From assembly GCF_003387475.1 (NCBI RefSeq), contig NZ_QUNO01000014.1, positions 248,001 through 312,000 on the forward strand: a stretch of DNA of 64,000 bases, written 5' to 3'. Below are positions 52,616 to 60,434 of the stretch, in pieces (position 1 is the first letter of the stretch; every line of letters begins with the position of its first letter). The notes beneath the pieces were generated by a model that was not told the DNA's origin, searched no databases, and saw only the letters and a program-made list of their open reading frames with translations. The DNA is from Kutzneria buriramensis (GTDB lineage: Bacteria > Actinomycetota > Actinomycetes > Mycobacteriales > Pseudonocardiaceae). The position numbers and the translations under genes were made by a program.

Positions 52616-55489
52616 TCAGGCCGAGGCGGCGTCGTCGAGCCGCGCGAGGGCGGCCCGCACCACCTCCGGGTCGTGCGTGGTCCAGAACGGCGGCAGCGAA
52701 GCCCGCAGGAAACCGCCGTACCGGGCGGTGGCCAGCCGCGGGTCGAGGATGGCGACGACGCCCTTGTCGTTGGTGGAGCGCAGCAGCCGACCGGCGCCCT
52801 GCGCGAGCAACAGGGCGGCGTGCGTGGCGGCCACGGTGAGGAAACCGTTGCCGCCACGGGCCTCCACGGCCCGCTGCCTGGCCGAGGCGAGCGGATCGTC
52901 GGGGCGGGGGAAGGGAATCCGATCGACGATGACGAGTTGCAGCGAGTCGCCGGGCACGTCGACGCCCTGCCACAGGGACAGCGTCCCGAACAGGCAGCAC
53001 CGCACGTCGTCGGCGAACTTCTTGACCAGCTGGGCGGTGGAGTCCTCGCCCTGACACAGCACGGGATACTCGATACGGGTGCGGATCGCCTCGGCGGCCT
53101 GCTTGGCGGCGCGCATGGACGAGAACAGCCCCAGCGTCCGCCCGCCGGCCGCGTTGACCAGCTCGACGATCTCGTCGAGGTAGGCCTGCGGCAGGCCGTC
53201 CCGGCCGGGTGTGGGCAGATGCCTTGCCAGGTAAAGGATTCCGCTGCGCCCGTGCTCGAACGGGGAGCCGACGTCCATGCCGCTCCAGCGAGGGGCGCTC
53301 AGGTCCGACGGCGGTTCCTTGTCGGTGGCGGTGGCATCGAGCTCCCGGACCTGGCTGGAGGCCGGCAGCCCCCACTGCCGGGCCAGGGCGTCGAAGGTGC
53401 CGCCGAGCGTGAGCGTGGCCGAGGTGAGCACGGTGGTCCGCGGCGCGAACAGGCGCTCCCGCAGCAGGCCGCCGACGCCGAGCGGGGCCACCTTCACCGT
53501 GGGCGGCTTGCTGTCGTCACGGAAATCGCCGGCCAGCCACACCACGTCCCGCCGATGCGCCTCGTCGCCGTCGAACGCCTCCAACAGCCGCACGGAGGTG
53601 TCGTGGATCTCGTCCAGCATCGCCAGCGCGAGCTTGCGGCCGACCGCCCCCTCGGGATCCTCCTTGCGTTCGGGGCCGAGCGCGGTGATGCAGCGGTGCG
53701 CGGCGTCCCGCACGGCCGCCAGCGCGCCGGACAGTGCCCGCGGCATCGCGTCGAGCCGCCCGATCGGCATCTCCGACAGCACGATCTCCAGGCCCTCGCC
53801 GGACTCCGACAGCTGATCGGCGACGTCGTCCTCGATCTGCCGCCCGCACCGCCGCACGGCGACCGCCAGCGCCGCGGTCGACAGCTCCGCGGTGGCCACC
53901 GACGTAACCCGGTCGACCAGGTCGTGCGCCTCGTCCACGATCACCAGATCGTGCTCCGGCAACACCTTGTAGCCCTCGAGGGCGTCGATCGCGAGCAGCG
54001 CGTGATTGGTGACGACCACGTCCGCCCGCCCCGCCTCGGCCCGCGCCCGCTCCGCGAAGCAGTCCACGCCGATCGGGCACTTCGAGACGCCGAGACATTC
54101 CTTGGCGCTCACGGAAAGCTGCCGCCACGCCTGATCGCTGACACCCGGCACCAGTTCGTCCCGGTCGCCCGTCTCGGTGTCCGACGACCACTCGTGCAGG
54201 CGCTTCACGTCCCGACCCAGCCGGGAGATCGCGAACGGGTCGAACAGGCCCTCGTCCTCCGGCTCGTCCGGCGCCCCGGAATGCACCCGGTGCATGCACA
54301 GATAGTTGCGGCGGCCCTTCAGGATCGCGAACGTGGGCTCGCGGCCCAGCGACTTCTTCAACGCCTTGGCCAGCCGCGGCAGATCCCGGTCCACCAGCTG
54401 CCGCTGCAACGCGATCGTCGCCGTGGACACCACCACCGTGGCCTCCTCGGCCACCGCGTGCCGGACCGCGGGCACCAGGTAGCCCAACGATTTCCCGGTG
54501 CCGGTGCCCGCCTGCACGGCCAGGTGCTCGCCCGTGCGGATCGCCCGCTCCACCGCCAGCGCCATCTCCACCTGTCCGGGCCGCTGCGTACCGCCGACGG
54601 CTTCGACGGCTTCGGCGAGCAGGGATTCGACTGAGGGCAGTTCCGGCACGAGCGAGACGTTACCCGCAACCCCTGACAGTGTTGGATTGCGCCGCCTTCG
54701 GCGTCGCGGCTCGGCCCCTTCGGGGCCGGTGCCTTCCCTGGCCGGATTTCGATCGCCCGCGTCGGCTCGTGCGGTGGTCGCGTCGGGTGGCGGCCGATCG
54801 AAATCCGGCGACGGTCCAGGCACCGGCGGGGCCTCGCGCAACTCACCCGACCAGGGCCGCCGGGTGTCTCGGACAGCGCCGAGAGCTGTGGCGCAGGCGT
54901 CCCGCACCGCCGCCTCCGACGGGGTCGGAACTCCCTGCTCCGCCGCGAGTTCGGCCAGCGAGCACATGGTGACGCCGGGCAGCGCGCACGCCGTGAAGTC
55001 GCGGTACACCGACATGTCCGGGTCGACGTTGACGGCGAACCCGTGGCTGGTCACCCCGCGCCGGATCCGCATGCCGATCGACACCAGCTTGCGGTGATCC
55101 GGCGTCCACACCCCGACCAGGCTGTTCGCGCCGGGCGGCGTGTCCCGCCTGATGGTGGCGAATCCCAGCGCCGCCAGCGCGTCGATCAGCCCGTTCTCCA
55201 CCCACCGCACGACGTCCACCGGCCCGCGGTCGCGGACGTTGATCACCAGGTACCCGACGAGCTGGCCGGGGCCGTGATACGTGGCGTAACCACCGCGGTC
55301 CACCTGCACGGTCGGCATCCCGGCGGGCAGATCAGCCGGATCCGTCCGCGGTCCGTAGGTGACGACGGGCGGGTGGCTCAGCAGGAACAGCCGGTCCTCG
55401 GCCCGGCCCTCCTGCCGCTCCGTCACCCACCCGCGCATGTCCTCGGCGGCCCGCTCGTACTCGACGACCCCGAGATCAACCCGCCGCAT
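52616..55489 (-). CDS. lipB-dinG: LipB octanoyltransferase fused in frame to DinG-type helicase
   Basis: One uninterrupted 957-codon frame. Residues 1-217 are LipB, which moves octanoyl from acyl carrier protein to lipoyl domains: RGGYATYHGPGQLVGYLV, RKLVSIGMRIRRGVTSHGFA (catalytic K134) and FTACALPG (C168). Residues about 218-268 are encoded by repeat R5 and look non-natural (RADAGDRNPAREGTGPEGAE, then RRRRRR). From about 281 begins a DinG/XPD-type helicase: Walker A AGTGTGKS (327-334), iron-sulfur cysteines (YLCMHR, ECLGVSKCPIGVDC), DEAH box VDEAHDL and terminal motif VI GRLLRS. A GTG at 54649 could start the helicase separately, but has no good ribosome site. No stop separates the two. Confidence 0.85.
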   Translation of the reverse strand: MRRVDLGVVEYERAAEDMRGWVTERQEGRAEDRLFLLSHPPVVTYGPRTDPADLPAGMPTVQVDRGGYATYHGPGQLVGYLVINVRDRGPVDVVRWVENGLIDALAALGFATIRRDTPPGANSLVGVWTPDHRKLVSIGMRIRRGVTSHGFAVNVDPDMSVYRDFTACALPGVTMCSLAELAAEQGVPTPSEAAVRDACATALGAVRDTRRPWSGELREAPPVPGPSPDFDRPPPDATTARADAGDRNPAREGTGPEGAEPRRRRRRNPTLSGVAGNVSLVPELPSVESLLAEAVEAVGGTQRPGQVEMALAVERAIRTGEHLAVQAGTGTGKSLGYLVPAVRHAVAEEATVVVSTATIALQRQLVDRDLPRLAKALKKSLGREPTFAILKGRRNYLCMHRVHSGAPDEPEDEGLFDPFAISRLGRDVKRLHEWSSDTETGDRDELVPGVSDQAWRQLSVSAKECLGVSKCPIGVDCFAERARAEAGRADVVVTNHALLAIDALEGYKVLPEHDLVIVDEAHDLVDRVTSVATAELSTAALAVAVRRCGRQIEDDVADQLSESGEGLEIVLSEMPIGRLDAMPRALSGALAAVRDAAHRCITALGPERKEDPEGAVGRKLALAMLDEIHDTSVRLLEAFDGDEAHRRDVVWLAGDFRDDSKPPTVKVAPLGVGGLLRERLFAPRTTVLTSATLTLGGTFDALARQWGLPASSQVRELDATATDKEPPSDLSAPRWSGMDVGSPFEHGRSGILYLARHLPTPGRDGLPQAYLDEIVELVNAAGGRTLGLFSSMRAAKQAAEAIRTRIEYPVLCQGEDSTAQLVKKFADDVRCCLFGTLSLWQGVDVPGDSLQLVIVDRIPFPRPDDPLASARQRAVEARGGNGFLTVAATHAALLLAQGAGRLLRSTNDKGVVAILDPRLATARYGGFLRASLPPFWTTHDPEVVRAALARLDDAASA
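54689..54838 (+). repeat. Structured repeat R5, inside the lipB-dinG frame
   Basis: R-family copy aligned base by base with R2 (same leader GCCGCCTTCGGCGTCGCGG, GGCCCC-TTC-GGGGCC). Stems GCCGGTGCC (54725) / GGCACCGGC (54819) and a perfect 15-bp GCCGGATTTCGATCG (54741) / complement (54795). R2 has GCCGATGC/GCATCGGC in stem 2, so both arms changed together. It is read through in frame by the minus strand. Confidence 0.9.
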
Positions 55490-55501
55490 GGACCACCGTC
55501 C

Positions 55502-55633
55502 TCAGAGCTTGATGACCTCAAGACCAGGAGTGCCGTCGTAATCGTCGTCTTGTGTGGCAACCGGCAGACCGGGCCGACTCTGCTCCACCGCCACGAAAAA
55601 CGATGTGTCGGCCAGCACGGTGCGAATAGTCAC
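55502..55633 (-). pseudogene. VapC toxin with large internal deletion
   Basis: The 43-codon frame begins TIRTVLADTSFFVAVEQSR, the PIN-domain start with its first acidic residue, and jumps directly to LPVATQDDDYDGTPGLEVIK, the usual VapC C-terminus. About 90 residues between, including the central metal-binding acids, are absent. GTG start overlaps the antitoxin stop by 4 bp, as in intact vapBC loci. The ends are in frame, which suggests a clean deletion. It cannot be an active RNase. Confidence 0.8.
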
Positions 55634-55890
55634 TGGTCAGGTGCCTTGTCCCACGGATCGTCGAGGTCGTCGGTCGTCTCGCGGAGATCGTCGAGAAGCC
55701 CGGCGTCGGCGCGGTTCGCGACGATCTCGGCCCGAGCCAGATACGGCCTGCGCGGCGGTAACGGGACGAGTCGGGCCACGGGTCGACCGCTGACGGTGAC
55801 CGTCAGCTCTTCACCCGCCTCGACGCGATGCAGGACCTCACTGGTGTGGTTCCGCAGTTCGCGCAGTGCGACCTCGTCCATGACGGCCAC
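55630..55890 (-). CDS. vapB: Phd/YefM-type antitoxin
   Basis: Predicted 86-residue antitoxin. EVALRELRNHTSEVLHRVEAGEELTVTVSGRPVARLVPL is the classic Phd/YefM DNA-binding N-terminal fold; the acidic tail (DDLRETTDDLDDPWDK) would wrap the toxin. The GTG at 55890 fits GAGG at 8 nt spacing. Its palindromic operator lies directly upstream. The partner toxin is internally deleted, so this may now only repress itself or act on a toxin elsewhere. Confidence 0.88.
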   Translation of the reverse strand: MAVMDEVALRELRNHTSEVLHRVEAGEELTVTVSGRPVARLVPLPPRRPYLARAEIVANRADAGLLDDLRETTDDLDDPWDKAPDQ

Positions 55891-55929: not shown

Positions 55930-56517
55930 TCAGTGCTGCTGGAAGCGGTGGACGAGGGCCCAGGTGCCGGGGAGCAGGCCGGCGGCGAGGGCGATCTTGA
56001 TGGCGTCGCCGAGGAGGAAGGGCGCGACGCCGGCGAGGAGCGCGGCGTGCAGGTCCATGCCGGTGGCGGCCATCAGCCACGGCACGCCGACGGCGTAGAT
56101 GATCAGGTTGCCCACCACCATGGTCCCGACGGTGCGCAGCGGCGTGCGGTCGCCGCCGCGGTTGGCGAGAGCCCCGACGAGGGCGCTGGCGGCGATGAAA
56201 CCGACGAGATACCCGCCGGTGACGGCGGCCCAACCGGAGGCCCCGCCGGTGAACCACGGCACGCCGGCGACGCCCGCGAGGAAGTACAGCGCCAGCGACA
56301 GCCCGCCGCGCTTCCACCCGAGACCGGCGCCGACCAGCAGGGCGGCGAATGTCTGACCGGTGACCGGCACCGGGCTGCCGGGGATGTGCACGGCGATCTG
56401 TGCGGCCAATCCGGTCAGCCCGGCGCCGGCCAACACCAGCGCGACGTCCTTGGTCAGTGCGCCGGGAATGGCGTCGGCCAGCACAGCACGGCGGTTGGTC
56501 ACAGCAAGTACGGACAT
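55930..56517 (-). CDS. bioY: BioY biotin transporter S-component
   Basis: Predicted 195-residue membrane protein that binds biotin in the energy-coupling-factor system. PVPVTGQTFAALLVGAGLGWKRG is the BioY hallmark region, with further helices GGLSLALYFLAGVAGVPWF and TGGYLVGFIAASALVGALA. No bioM/bioN genes adjoin, so it either works alone or uses a distant ECF module. ATG behind GAGGAGGGA. It is the last gene of the same-strand series with the radical SAM genes but is preceded by 74 bp. Confidence 0.9.
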   Translation of the reverse strand: MSVLAVTNRRAVLADAIPGALTKDVALVLAGAGLTGLAAQIAVHIPGSPVPVTGQTFAALLVGAGLGWKRGGLSLALYFLAGVAGVPWFTGGASGWAAVTGGYLVGFIAASALVGALANRGGDRTPLRTVGTMVVGNLIIYAVGVPWLMAATGMDLHAALLAGVAPFLLGDAIKIALAAGLLPGTWALVHRFQQH

Positions 56518-56591: not shown

Positions 56592-56630
56592 TCACCATGT
56601 CTTCCGGGGGTCGAGCTTGGGCAGTGCCAT
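56592..56630 (-). CDS. 12-codon peptide ORF MALPKLDPRKTW behind a perfect Shine-Dalgarno
   Basis: ATG at 56630, stop TGA at 56592, directly after the radical SAM gene. The sequence AGGAGGTGATCC (minus strand, 56644-56633) is complementary over all 12 nt to the 16S rRNA 3' end and ideally spaced (8 nt from GGAGG to ATG). Such a signal is far stronger than at nearly any gene here. The peptide ends in Trp and contains K, D, P and R. Candidates: precursor of a ribosomal peptide modified by the adjacent radical SAM enzyme, or a translational signal. No homologue is claimed. Confidence 0.6.
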   Translation of the reverse strand: MALPKLDPRKTW

Positions 56631-56645
56631 CGGGATCACCTCCTC

Positions 56646-57650
56646 TCAGTACACGAGCAGCGGGTACATCGGTCGGTTGTCGATGCGCGCGAGGTCCTCG
56701 GCGGACGCGAAGTGGCGGTCGAGGGTCCGCACGGCGTCGGCCCACTGCCGCATGGTGCGCACGGGCGCGAGCGTCTCCGTGACGACGGGGTCGCGCCAGC
56801 GGGCGATCGCCCGCTGCCACAGCACTTCCCACGGTTCGAGACGCAGGTTGCCCACGGTGCCCTCGTAGAAGGTCATGGCCCGCACGCTGCCGTCGGCCTC
56901 GACGAACATGGCCTGCGAGCCGGGGCCGATCTCGTCGTCGGGATGCATCATCACGCACCGGTTGTCGGTCGTCTCGACCAGCACGGACTGGGGCGCAAGC
57001 GCTTGCAGCTCGGCGCGCAGGGCGTCGTCGGCCAGCCGGGCCCACTGCTCCTCGGTGACGAGCTCGTGCAGGGCGAACCCGGCGCGGCTGGCCAGCCCGA
57101 ACGGCGTCGCCGCCTCGAACCCGATCCGCCGCAGGTTCGAGAAGCGTGGCGCGATGTCGGTGCAGTACGAGGCGAGCTGGTCGAAGTTGCTCCGCATGAC
57201 GGCGCAGTCGATGGCGAACCGGATGTCGCCGGCGCCGTCGAGCAGCTCCAGTGCCCGCATCGCACGGTCGAACGAGCCGGCGCGGCCGCGCAGCCGGTCA
57301 TGGACCTCGGCGGTCGCGCCGTCGACGCTCACCACGACGCGGTCGCAGGATTCGGCCAGGCGCGGCACCATTTCCGCGCTCAGCGGCCAGCCACCGGTGT
57401 ACAGCGCGACGAGGATGCCCGCCCCGCGCAGGCGTTCGGCCACCTCGAAGATCTCGCGGACCACCAGCGGCTCGCCGCCGCACAGGTCCACGAGCGCCGG
57501 CCCCATCTCGATGACGGCGTCGGCCACGCGCAGCAGGTCGTCCCGGTCCAGCTGGCGCGCGGGCCGCCGGCCGGCCTCCGAGTAGCAGTGCTCGCAACGC
57601 AGCGGGCACGCGTGGGTGATGTCCCAGACAACGACGTGCGGACCGTCCAT
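56646..57650 (-). CDS. Radical SAM protein
   Basis: Predicted 334-residue radical SAM enzyme. HACPLRCEHCYSEAG holds the CxxxCxxC cluster motif; DLCGGEPLV is the GGE motif and RVVVSVDGATAEVHDRLRG the strand-5 region. The C-terminal part contains GTVGNLRLEPWEVLW, which resembles SPASM/twitch maturases, but the auxiliary-cluster cysteines are mostly absent. In this setting a maturase of a short peptide or another small molecule is likely. Stop codon TGA precedes the strong ribosome site of the 12-codon ORF by 1 nt. Confidence 0.88.
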   Translation of the reverse strand: MDGPHVVVWDITHACPLRCEHCYSEAGRRPARQLDRDDLLRVADAVIEMGPALVDLCGGEPLVVREIFEVAERLRGAGILVALYTGGWPLSAEMVPRLAESCDRVVVSVDGATAEVHDRLRGRAGSFDRAMRALELLDGAGDIRFAIDCAVMRSNFDQLASYCTDIAPRFSNLRRIGFEAATPFGLASRAGFALHELVTEEQWARLADDALRAELQALAPQSVLVETTDNRCVMMHPDDEIGPGSQAMFVEADGSVRAMTFYEGTVGNLRLEPWEVLWQRAIARWRDPVVTETLAPVRTMRQWADAVRTLDRHFASAEDLARIDNRPMYPLLVY

Positions 57651-57700
57651 GGCTCAGCACGGTGCGCCCCGCGCCGTCCCGATCGCCAGGGAAGGAATTC

Positions 57701-58234
57701 CTAGGTGACCCGGGAGGATTTCCCGGTTCGCCGCCGCACGACCAGCCATCCGAACAGCACCAGCGAGGCCAGGCTGCCGACCACGTTGATCAGCGAGCCC
57801 AGCAGCGTGTGGCCGACCAGGTAGCCGGTGTCCGCGCCGAGCCAGCTGACCAGGCCGACAAGCGACAGGATGCGCAGCTGGTTGACCGCGACCAGGGCCA
57901 GCGCGGCGAAACCCAGCGCCACCACCACTTTCCCGGTGATGCGCGGCACCAGCGCGACCAGCACCGAGGCGAGCAGCAGCAGCGGCACGAGCAGGAACGC
58001 GGATGTGCCCTCGGGAGTCATCCGCATGCCGAGCGGGTGATCGGTGTCGAGTCCGAAGTACACCGCGTGCGCCGCGCCGTCCAGTCGCACGCCGGACGGC
58101 TGGAACACCAGTGCCGCAAGGGAGATCTCCGCACGCTGGTACAGCCGGTGCACGAGCGCGAGCACCGCGGCGGCCGCCACCAGCAGCACCACCACGGCCG
58201 GGGCCCGGACGCGCGGGGCCGTCACTGCTGTCAC
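57701..58234 (-). CDS. Exosortase/archaeosortase-like membrane protein lacking the cysteine
   Basis: Predicted 177-residue protein with about six hydrophobic helices. It keeps the family's VNQLRILSLVGLV (conserved N and R) and GYLVGHTLLGSLINVVG (H). Where exosortases carry the catalytic E-C-T/S-G segment, this protein reads TPEGTSAFLL, so the cysteine position is Gly. GTG start behind AAAGGA. It precedes the radical SAM gene by 50 bp. It may be a catalytically dead scaffold, or a related but different activity. Confidence 0.65.
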   Translation of the reverse strand: MTAVTAPRVRAPAVVVLLVAAAAVLALVHRLYQRAEISLAALVFQPSGVRLDGAAHAVYFGLDTDHPLGMRMTPEGTSAFLLVPLLLLASVLVALVPRITGKVVVALGFAALALVAVNQLRILSLVGLVSWLGADTGYLVGHTLLGSLINVVGSLASLVLFGWLVVRRRTGKSSRVT

Positions 58235-58402
58235 GCGTAGTCCTTTCACGTTCGCGTCCAGCGAGGTATCGGTACCGCGTGACATCCCCTGAACGGCCGG
58301 AACGGGTGGTCGGACGACGCTGAACCGGCTGACATCGGCACGGTGCGTAGTGACTGCTGGGCGGAACGGCTGAACGGGGTCCCTCGTGTGGGTCGCCGGC
58401 CT

Positions 58403-58521: not shown

Positions 58522-59685
58522 TTGAGCACCGAAGTGCTGCTGCTGGCCGGAACCCGGCCGGAGGCACTCAAGGCCGCGCCGGTGGCGCTCGCGCTGGCCG
58601 GCCATCCCCTGCTGCGTCCGATGATCGTGCACAGCGGTCAGCACGTGGGCCTGGTCGAGCAGGCGCTGGCCCCGTTCGACCTGCGCCCGGACGCGTTCGT
58701 GCCGCTGCGCCGCGAGATCGGTAGCCAAGCTGAGCTGGTCTCGGGCGTGCTGCGACGACTGGACGAGCTGATCGTGCGCCGCCGCCCGGCTGCCGTGCTG
58801 GTCCAGGGCGACACGTCCACCGCGCTCGCCGGCGCGCTCGCCGCCTACTGGCGCGGAGTGCCCGTCGCACACCTGGGCGCCGGGCTGCGCAGCGGCGACC
58901 TGGCCTCGCCCTTCCCTGAGGAGGGCAACCGGCAGATGATCTCCCGCATCGCCGCGCTGCACCTCGCCCCGACGGAGGCCGCCGCCCGCGCGCTGCTCGC
59001 CGAGGCCGTGCCCGGAAAGCGAATCACCATCACCGGAAACACCATTGTGGACGCGCTGCACCGCATCACGGCCGCGAGGCTGCCGCCGCGCAGCCAGGTC
59101 CTGCTCGACCTGGAGGCGCAGGTCAGCGCCGACGGTGGTCGGATCGTGCTGGTGACCGTCCACCGCCGTGAATCGTGGGGCGAGCCGCTGGATCGGGTGC
59201 TTGCCGCCGTGCGGTCCATGGTGGACCGCCACCCTGACATTCACGTGCTGCTGCCGCTGCACCCGAACCCGACCGTGCAGGCGCAGGTGTCCGGAGCGCT
59301 CCAGGGCCACGACCGCGTCTGGCTGTGCGACCCGCTGGACTACCCGGACCTGCTTCGGGCGCTGCGCCAGGCAGCGCTCGTCGTCACGGATTCCGGTGGC
59401 CTACAGGAGGAAGCGCCCAGTTTCGGGGTGCCGGCACTGGTCGTGCGGGACACTCCCGACCGGCTCGAGGCGGTCGACGCCGGCTACGCGTGGGTGGTCG
59501 GCACCGACGACACCCGCATCGTCGCCGAGGCCGACTGGCTGCTCGGCTCGCACCTGCGGCTGCCCACCGGGCACAACCCGTTCGGTGACGGGCAGGCGGG
59601 CCATCGGGTGGTCGCCGCACTCGACCGGCTGCTGGGCACGGGCGGAGTCGGCGCGCAGACGCCGGAATTGATCGCCCTCCGCTGA
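58522..59685 (+). CDS. wecB: UDP-N-acetylglucosamine 2-epimerase (non-hydrolysing)
   Basis: Predicted 387-residue enzyme that makes UDP-ManNAc for wall or capsule polymers. Marks: GTRPEALKAAPV, MIVHSGQHVGLVEQAL, VQGDTSTALAGALAAYWRGVPVAHLGAGLRSGD, FPEEGNRQMIS, VTVHRRESWG (HRRE), VTDSGGLQEEAPSFGVPALVVRD. TTG start, 9 nt behind GAGGAG. Divergent from the exosortase-like gene by about 290 bp. Slightly longer than E. coli WecB (376). Confidence 0.93.
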   Translation: MSTEVLLLAGTRPEALKAAPVALALAGHPLLRPMIVHSGQHVGLVEQALAPFDLRPDAFVPLRREIGSQAELVSGVLRRLDELIVRRRPAAVLVQGDTSTALAGALAAYWRGVPVAHLGAGLRSGDLASPFPEEGNRQMISRIAALHLAPTEAAARALLAEAVPGKRITITGNTIVDALHRITAARLPPRSQVLLDLEAQVSADGGRIVLVTVHRRESWGEPLDRVLAAVRSMVDRHPDIHVLLPLHPNPTVQAQVSGALQGHDRVWLCDPLDYPDLLRALRQAALVVTDSGGLQEEAPSFGVPALVVRDTPDRLEAVDAGYAWVVGTDDTRIVAEADWLLGSHLRLPTGHNPFGDGQAGHRVVAALDRLLGTGGVGAQTPELIALR

Positions 59686-59786: not shown

Positions 59787-60434
59787 ATGTTCAGCAGGAG
59801 CGCGCGGCGCGTCGGAGCCGGGGCGGCCGCGGTGCTCGCGGCGATGGCCCTCACGGCGATTCCGGCCGGGGCGACGCCGCTTGGCCAGACCTCGCTGGGC
59901 TCGGTCGACGTCACCCGCGACGGGCGCCCGGTCACGGTGCCGCCGATCGCGCAGTGCGATGTCACCGCGGACCAGCAGAACTCCAGCAACGGCACGCACG
60001 CCTACGGCGTGGCGAACTTCGGCGCCGGCAACACCAGCTGCACCAAGGACGCCGGCGCGAAGACCGCGAAGATGACGGCCAGCGGCAACAGCTTCGACCT
60101 GACCGCCCTCGTGCCGTACGGCGGCCCGGAGATCAAGCTCGCCAACTACAGCGCGAGCTGCTCGGCCACCACGACAAGCACCACGGTCGCCTTCCAGTTC
60201 AGCGGCCTCCAGGGCGTGACCGCGCCGAAGCCGATCCCGGCCAACTACACCACCACCGTCGGCCCGGCCGACGACCCGCAGGCCCGCGTCACCTTCAACG
60301 AGGTGATCCAGGCCGAGCCCAACGACGGCAGCGTGACCATCAACATGCTGCACATCCAGCTCTACCCGAACGGCGACGGCCCGATGAGCGGCGACGTGAT
60401 CGTCGGTCACGCCGCCTGCTCGCCGACGTCATGA
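59787..60434 (+). CDS. Secreted protein, choice-of-anchor-P-like
   Basis: Predicted 215-residue exported protein. A clear signal peptide (VGAGAAAVLAAMALTAIPAGA) is followed by a beta-rich Ser/Thr/Asn domain with two cysteine pairs and a C-terminal INMLHIQLYPNGDGPMSGD then VIVGHAACSP. The end resembles secreted actinobacterial proteins called choice-of-anchor P, from memory. No sorting signal or membrane tail is visible. ATG behind GAAGGAAGG. Close to the exosortase-like gene but on the other strand. Confidence 0.7.
   Translation: MFSRSARRVGAGAAAVLAAMALTAIPAGATPLGQTSLGSVDVTRDGRPVTVPPIAQCDVTADQQNSSNGTHAYGVANFGAGNTSCTKDAGAKTAKMTASGNSFDLTALVPYGGPEIKLANYSASCSATTTSTTVAFQFSGLQGVTAPKPIPANYTTTVGPADDPQARVTFNEVIQAEPNDGSVTINMLHIQLYPNGDGPMSGDVIVGHAACSPTS

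Follow-up and report, generated by a model that had tools for sequence, protein, structure and literature searches.

Can a radical S-adenosylmethionine (SAM) enzyme act on a peptide of only a dozen residues that carries no leader? A locus of Kutzneria buriramensis raises this question. It lies in the 64,000-nucleotide stretch at positions 248,001–312,000 of contig NZ_QUNO01000014.1 (assembly GCF_003387475.1, forward strand), hereafter the window, whose own coordinates we use throughout. A minus-strand gene at 56646–57650 encodes a 334-residue radical SAM protein with a CxxxCxxC motif (PF04055, E 1.4e-21), and behind it lies a 12-codon open reading frame (ORF), MALPKLDPRKTW (56592–56630, minus strand), a putative leaderless precursor peptide. 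The initial annotation, which had placed the enzyme gene correctly, proposed a minimal peptide-maturation system. We find that a radical SAM gene and a very small peptide gene form a recurring pair in other actinobacteria, which makes such a system the best reading. With a probability of roughly two in three, the window holds a two-gene cassette, an enzyme and its leaderless 12-residue mini-precursor, from a family of radical SAM enzymes with 9–14-residue substrates.

A twelve-codon gene behind a perfect Shine-Dalgarno sequence

The two genes are separated by little more than a ribosome-binding site. On the minus strand, the radical SAM stop codon (TGA, 56648–56646) is followed by one base, the Shine-Dalgarno (SD) sequence AGGAGGTGATCC (56644–56633), the dinucleotide CG, and the ATG of the mini-ORF at 56630, which runs to a TGA at 56594–56592. 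All 12 bases of the SD sequence can pair, in one unbroken run, with the 16S 3' end of the same genome, which contains its exact complement (the end of the 16S gene, on L129, is itself a pattern match). Five copies of the 12-mer occur in the 11.97-Mb genome: one is the 16S gene end, one precedes MALPKLDPRKTW, and the other three lack a start codon at SD spacing (in one, a GTG follows 17 bases on). The copy ahead of MALPKLDPRKTW is the only one in SD position genome-wide. The reversed pattern, used as a control, matched nowhere in this genome. With one mismatch allowed, the window contains three matches against 0.17 expected, the other two at unlike sites, and Rfam (gathering threshold) and tRNA scans of the window returned no matches. 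The arrangement of SD sequence and mini-ORF, as first described, is real and not a product of chance.

Mini-peptide genes recur beside related enzymes

We searched for relatives of the enzyme in five genome sets. In the genus (seven genomes including its own, E ≤ 1e-60), matches were confined to its own genome and one other at 53% identity. The bacterial family (390 genomes, E ≤ 1e-60) yielded matches in 13 genomes at 17 loci, the Streptosporangium family (250 genomes) three at E ≤ 1e-113 and 54–59% identity, and Micromonosporaceae (300 genomes, E ≤ 1e-90) matches in 15 genomes at 16 loci. A one-genome-per-species collection held 137 relatives, the best at 58% identity; we kept the best 80 of these (76 loci). 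The collection itself may omit records close to the window's genome. No ortholog above about 60% identity appeared in the genus, family, per-species or Streptosporangium-family searches. Among viral contigs, 18 stretches fit the enzyme-profile pattern and none was a relative.

Mini-peptides of 9–14 residues, without a leader and behind strong SD sequences, adjoin related radical SAM genes in these actinobacteria. Scanning for very short ORFs preceded by an SD of at least 6, and choosing candidates by eye from the ORF lists, we found one at 10 of the 17 family loci, including MALPKLDPRKTW itself. The others are MAFPPTTLGGTR at a second locus of the window's own genome, MAWPSWPEGIR (two genomes), MAFWPPAKGTHA, MAYWPPTTVSH, MAYWPPTKVSH and, at three loci, MAYPPTG[LV]GR (MAYPPTGLGR among them; one starts with GTG). 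The per-species set has a mini-ORF at 12 of 76 loci and adds MMYPPPTVGDAS, MMYPPPTVGD, MMYPPPTVGTGR, MMYPPPTTSGPRPS, MMYPPPTTGGN, MRAYPPVDAS and MRKYPDVGA, encoded divergently from the radical SAM gene. Two of the 16 Micromonosporaceae loci were already known members of the architecture we call B1 (below). Four more, whose enzymes are 88–93% identical to the Plantactinospora one, encode MRAYPPVDAS (twice), MSAYPPVDPA and MRAYPPVDAL; the ten less similar loci (50–57% identity) have no such mini-ORF within the 4 kb fetched.

The peptides share an N-terminal pattern: Met, one or two residues (often Ala), an aromatic Tyr, Phe or Trp, then Pro or Trp-Pro, with a second Pro in most. The window peptide has Leu at the aromatic position. 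The C-terminal residue differs between peptides (R, H, A, S, D, N, L, W), and Cys is absent from the mini-peptides found. At least eight contiguous SD bases precede 19 of the 21 mini-ORFs examined, against 10 of 747 ordinary genes of related loci, a comparison biased by preselection of mini-ORFs for an SD of at least 5 and by gene starts taken from our own simple gene caller.

Selection appears to act on the start of these genes. Five sets of close relatives were compared: codons 1–7 are 90–100% identical, with upstream flanks at 49–89% and downstream flanks at 72–89%; synonymous changes occur in all five, and residue changes fall at codon 8 or later, except one at codon 2. Two sets argue otherwise: the upstream flank of set 1 (0.89) is almost as conserved as the ORF start (0.93), and the flanks of set 3b (0.87–0.89) are better conserved than its ORF as a whole (0.67). 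Two enzyme-independent pattern searches found short ORFs of this kind only beside radical SAM genes: in the first, two of six matches (control 2), the remaining four belonging to frames 31 to 405 codons long that have no radical SAM gene within the fetched 3 kb, and in the second, five of five (control 0). The patterns were modelled on known members, and the first picks up just 2 of the 10 loci known in that bacterial family.

The loci fall into two architectures, each a single branch of the radical SAM tree. In B1 (13 rows, two identical), the mini-ORF diverges from the radical SAM gene and is accompanied by two ABC exporter genes and a LuxR/AAA regulator (none seen in L088, a short contig), with a hairpin predicted after the mini-ORF in those folded. 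In B2 (four rows), radical SAM gene, mini-ORF and hairpin lie on one strand, near an MFS transporter in L060, L099 and L100 and an M28 peptidase with a PA domain in L028, L060 and L100; some B1 and B2 neighbours were identified by clustering to Pfam-tested proteins. With a B1 enzyme as query at E ≤ 1e-122, only the query's own genome matched among 394 Streptomycetaceae, indicating that close B1 relatives are rare there. Separately, L025, L044, L057 and L070 each carry two radical SAM genes of the same family within the fetched stretch.

The window has a B2-like gene order, yet its enzyme has Cys57 (in CGGEP), common only to it and the 13 B1 rows (14 of 83 aligned rows); one may speculate that this residue has a catalytic role. 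The tree does not place the window firmly, leaving it on a long branch of 0.76. In approximately unbiased (AU) tests, no single-clade hypothesis was rejected (B1 plus window, p = 0.92; B2 plus window, 0.864; B1 plus B2, 0.723; all three, 0.569), and each constrained tree out-scored the free search. The leader may therefore have been lost between one and three times.

A link to lanthipeptide clusters

Radical SAM enzymes are reported to occur in lanthipeptide clusters (PMC7268733). Among our 83 aligned rows, 53 have a protein that clusters with lanthionine synthetases no more than 7.5 kb away; the one tested, from L022, is a class IV LanL (NF038150, 1114.5 bits against a cut-off of 650). No synthetase lies within 7.5 kb in the window or the B1 and B2 rows. 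A strict search found a precursor with [FWYH]P behind a leader in 38 of the 53 synthetase loci, and none in the remaining 15. Twelve loci carry neither the B nor the synthetase label; five of them have such a precursor, and six (L024, L026, L030, L045, L074 and L097) show no convincing precursor in the strict or a looser scan; the latter adds others, including L058 (RYPC), L083 (AFPC), L095 (LWPC) and L103 (VAWPC). Seven lanthipeptide precursors were tested against models: three score above the ALQxL class IV cut-off and four match class III/noursin models below cut-off. In Crossiella (L015/L071), three tandem lanthipeptide-type precursor genes lie 3' of the radical SAM gene and end in LWPCRITI or LWPCQVTIET; the one tested matches the ALQxL model. 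L024 and L030, Streptomyces relatives, have neither synthetase nor convincing peptide gene nearby, and the L024 genome also has a B1 locus, L092 of Streptomyces melanogenes.

The initial annotation had expected relatives to keep a peptide at this position. Four B2 rows have one downstream and 13 B1 rows a divergent one, at many other loci the same motif appears in a leader-type precursor, and for a minority there is no convincing peptide.

These class III and IV clusters (LanKC/LanL, ALQxL precursors) are the closest likeness we see: they share the enzyme family, and their cores open with the same aromatic-Pro motif, such as AWPPPT, LWPC or AHPC. They differ from the mini-peptide loci in having a lanthionine synthetase in range, a leader and peptide Cys. 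The B loci have motif and enzyme but no synthetase, so the motif goes with the radical SAM enzyme, at least among the clusters compared, which all carry it. The mini-peptides thus look like lanthipeptide core starts without their leader, and the aromatic-Pro unit is the enzyme's likely site of action. Noursin was considered as a control lacking the enzyme and dropped: the passages of PMC10206099 consulted mention neither Phe nor Tyr, but acid hydrolysis would have destroyed any Trp.

Our model proceeds as follows. The mini-peptides would be translated from an unusually strong ribosome site and serve as substrates of an enzyme that shows a single cluster motif and lacks a RiPP (ribosomally synthesized and post-translationally modified peptide) recognition domain. 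That enzyme would share ancestry with those of class III/IV clusters, in which its most likely target is the aromatic-Pro unit that opens the core; in the mini-peptide lineages, with leader and synthetase absent, only the unit the enzyme needs would remain. The product would then be exported by the paired ABC exporter in B1 or the MFS transporter in three of four B2 loci, and the M28 peptidase (three of four B2 loci) may trim it. We infer this order of events, and the peptide could act as a signal or an antibiotic. That the loci form a leaderless radical SAM RiPP family of this descent, a movable cassette of about 1.1 kb pairing a 30–45-bp core-start gene with an enzyme that lacks a recognition domain and acts on aromatic-Pro, strikes us as probable, though we hold it with some reserve.

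As for RiPP features, a precursor gene recurring beside its modifying enzyme is present at the family level, the window peptide being a single instance; a leader and recognition domain, common but not universal, are absent from a system with peptides of 9–14 residues. Biarylitides, P450-crosslinked 5-residue precursors from an 18-bp gene, are comparable in pairing a tiny, annotation-evading gene with a dedicated crosslinking enzyme, and differ in peptide length and in using a cytochrome P450 where the window has a PF04055 radical SAM protein (for biarylitides, PMC13417212 and PMC12951456). Our search of the open-access literature found no report of radical SAM enzymes with leaderless mini-peptides, and six precursor stretches had no occurrences there. 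If the model is right, radical SAM enzymes can dispense with leader and recognition domain when acting on peptides some ten residues long, and would be simple tools for short synthetic peptides. The family would further reveal a class of peptide genes that escape gene callers by their small size, and would illustrate how a complex lanthipeptide pathway can shrink to one enzyme and a tiny gene.

The native XrtP locus and competing explanations

The window pair occupies a site that holds another gene in related species. In congeners G001 and G002 the order is wecB, XrtP, glycosyltransferase, BioY, LipB, and G003 and G006 also have wecB, XrtP and the glycosyltransferase, the latter matching PF00535 and, partially, the XrtP-associated family NF053846 (235 bits, cut-off 520); in the two remaining genomes of the genus, XrtP had no match. 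In the window, a segment without homology to congeners (56596–57730, minus strand, ends approximate to a few bases) replaces this gene with the radical SAM gene and mini-ORF. Searching the window's genome for the glycosyltransferase (E ≤ 1e-20, no positive control) gave no match. Homology to G001/G002 stops at about 57731, just inside the XrtP end, and starts again at 56595, the final base of the Trp12 codon, with the native TGA next. These breakpoints indicate that the two genes arrived, or were retained, together, and the replacement of the congeners' glycosyltransferase that they behave as one cassette; the end of the window peptide is in part made by the flank.

The flanks are native. The XrtP-like exosortase (57701–58237, minus; NF012139, 182 bits, cut-off 200; start codon uncertain) was considered as a functional partner and rejected: four of the six other genus genomes have XrtP and glycosyltransferase without the radical SAM gene, and we therefore take XrtP as the host locus. 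It seems shortened or interrupted in congeners (L143, L144, L145) and is open in the window. A wecB-like UDP-GlcNAc 2-epimerase (58522–59685, plus) and a choice-of-anchor P family protein (59787–60434, plus) also belong to the native XrtP locus, and on the other side the BioY family gene (55930–56517, minus) and its 5' region are conserved in two congeners.

The breakpoint within the last codon raises the most serious alternative, that the window copy is a decaying or truncated fragment, cut there on entering the XrtP locus and perhaps functionless, in a family that is nonetheless real. Several features fit: Leu in place of the aromatic residue, no transporter adjoining the pair, the long tree branch, and no strong hairpin behind the stop, where fold prediction gives one for the 20 other mini-ORFs folded. 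Yet the enzyme's reading frame runs uninterrupted for 334 codons, preserves CxxxCxxC and GGEP, and deviates at just three positions conserved in at least 93% of rows; the SD retains its full 12-base match, and the breakpoint leaves the ORF closed. We judge decay unlikely, though worth keeping in view, and the copy is perhaps best described as an aberrant member, lacking aromatic residue, hairpin and exporter, that is either specialised or decaying.

Less plausible still, the mini-ORFs could be regulatory leader peptides at which stalling, for example at Pro-Pro, controls a terminator-like hairpin ahead of exporter genes. Several peptides contain PP or PPP, and a strong hairpin is predicted directly after the stop in the B1 and B2 loci examined. 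That hairpin lies wholly 3' of the ORF (no detailed search for alternative pairing was made), the same motif occurs in leader-bearing lanthipeptide precursors, such short ORFs emerged from the pattern searches only beside radical SAM genes, and BioY, the gene behind the window mini-ORF, keeps its own native 5' region; we consider regulation improbable.

The specific chemistry first suggested, a Lys-Trp crosslink near the C-terminus with KLDPRKTW-like conservation, fared worse than the maturation system itself, which stands at the family level through recurrence beside the enzyme. KLDPRKTW occurs in none of the mini-peptides found, no other one has a C-terminal Trp with a nearby Lys, and the Trp codon sits on the junction, its last base and the stop being flanking DNA shared with congeners. 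In streptide, the precursor conserves the crosslinked Lys and Trp; the mini-peptides do not. The enzyme model does resemble SuiB, the streptide maturase, among many others, including members of the SPASM/twitch maturases. SkfB/SuiB-type maturases have a recognition domain, leader-bearing precursors and auxiliary clusters, none of which is seen for the window enzyme. SkfB and SuiB have about 100 more N-terminal residues (residue 1 of our model aligns at SkfB residue 99), and the C-terminal domain lacks conserved cysteines of the auxiliary-cluster type: across the 83-row alignment, Cys occurs in at least 10 rows only at columns 15, 19, 22, 57, 102, 149 and 163. A streptide-like crosslink is accordingly very improbable. 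Cys163 was tried as a hydrogen-atom donor and dropped, because it sits in helix 153–169 of the model, taken as outside the barrel.

Twelve codons alone carry almost no statistical weight, but family recurrence and the strength and position of the SD make a chance ORF behind a chance SD-like sequence barely credible.

Other radical SAM families were compared as well. The MftC (mycofactocin) model is second-best in NCBIfam (1.4e-29), and the enzyme scores far below the equivalog cut-offs for MftC (TIGR03962, 103 of 265 bits) and PqqE of PQQ synthesis (TIGR02109, 61 of 381). Among viperin models, PADLOC pVip gives E 1.4e-17 and NF038283 scores 51 bits against a cut-off of 180, and the fold comparison is tied; unlike viperins, the window enzyme has a peptide gene beside it.

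Two further minus-strand features lie beyond BioY. At 55500–55890, a Phd/YefM-type antitoxin gene is followed by a very short frame, by eye presumably a PIN-type toxin without its middle. At 52616–55489, a single 957-codon frame joins a LipB octanoyltransferase to a DinG/YoaA-type helicase; the linker DNA (about 54680–54860) appears by eye to hold a G+C-rich inverted repeat, and the frame aligns in two main parts in two congeners and throughout in a third.
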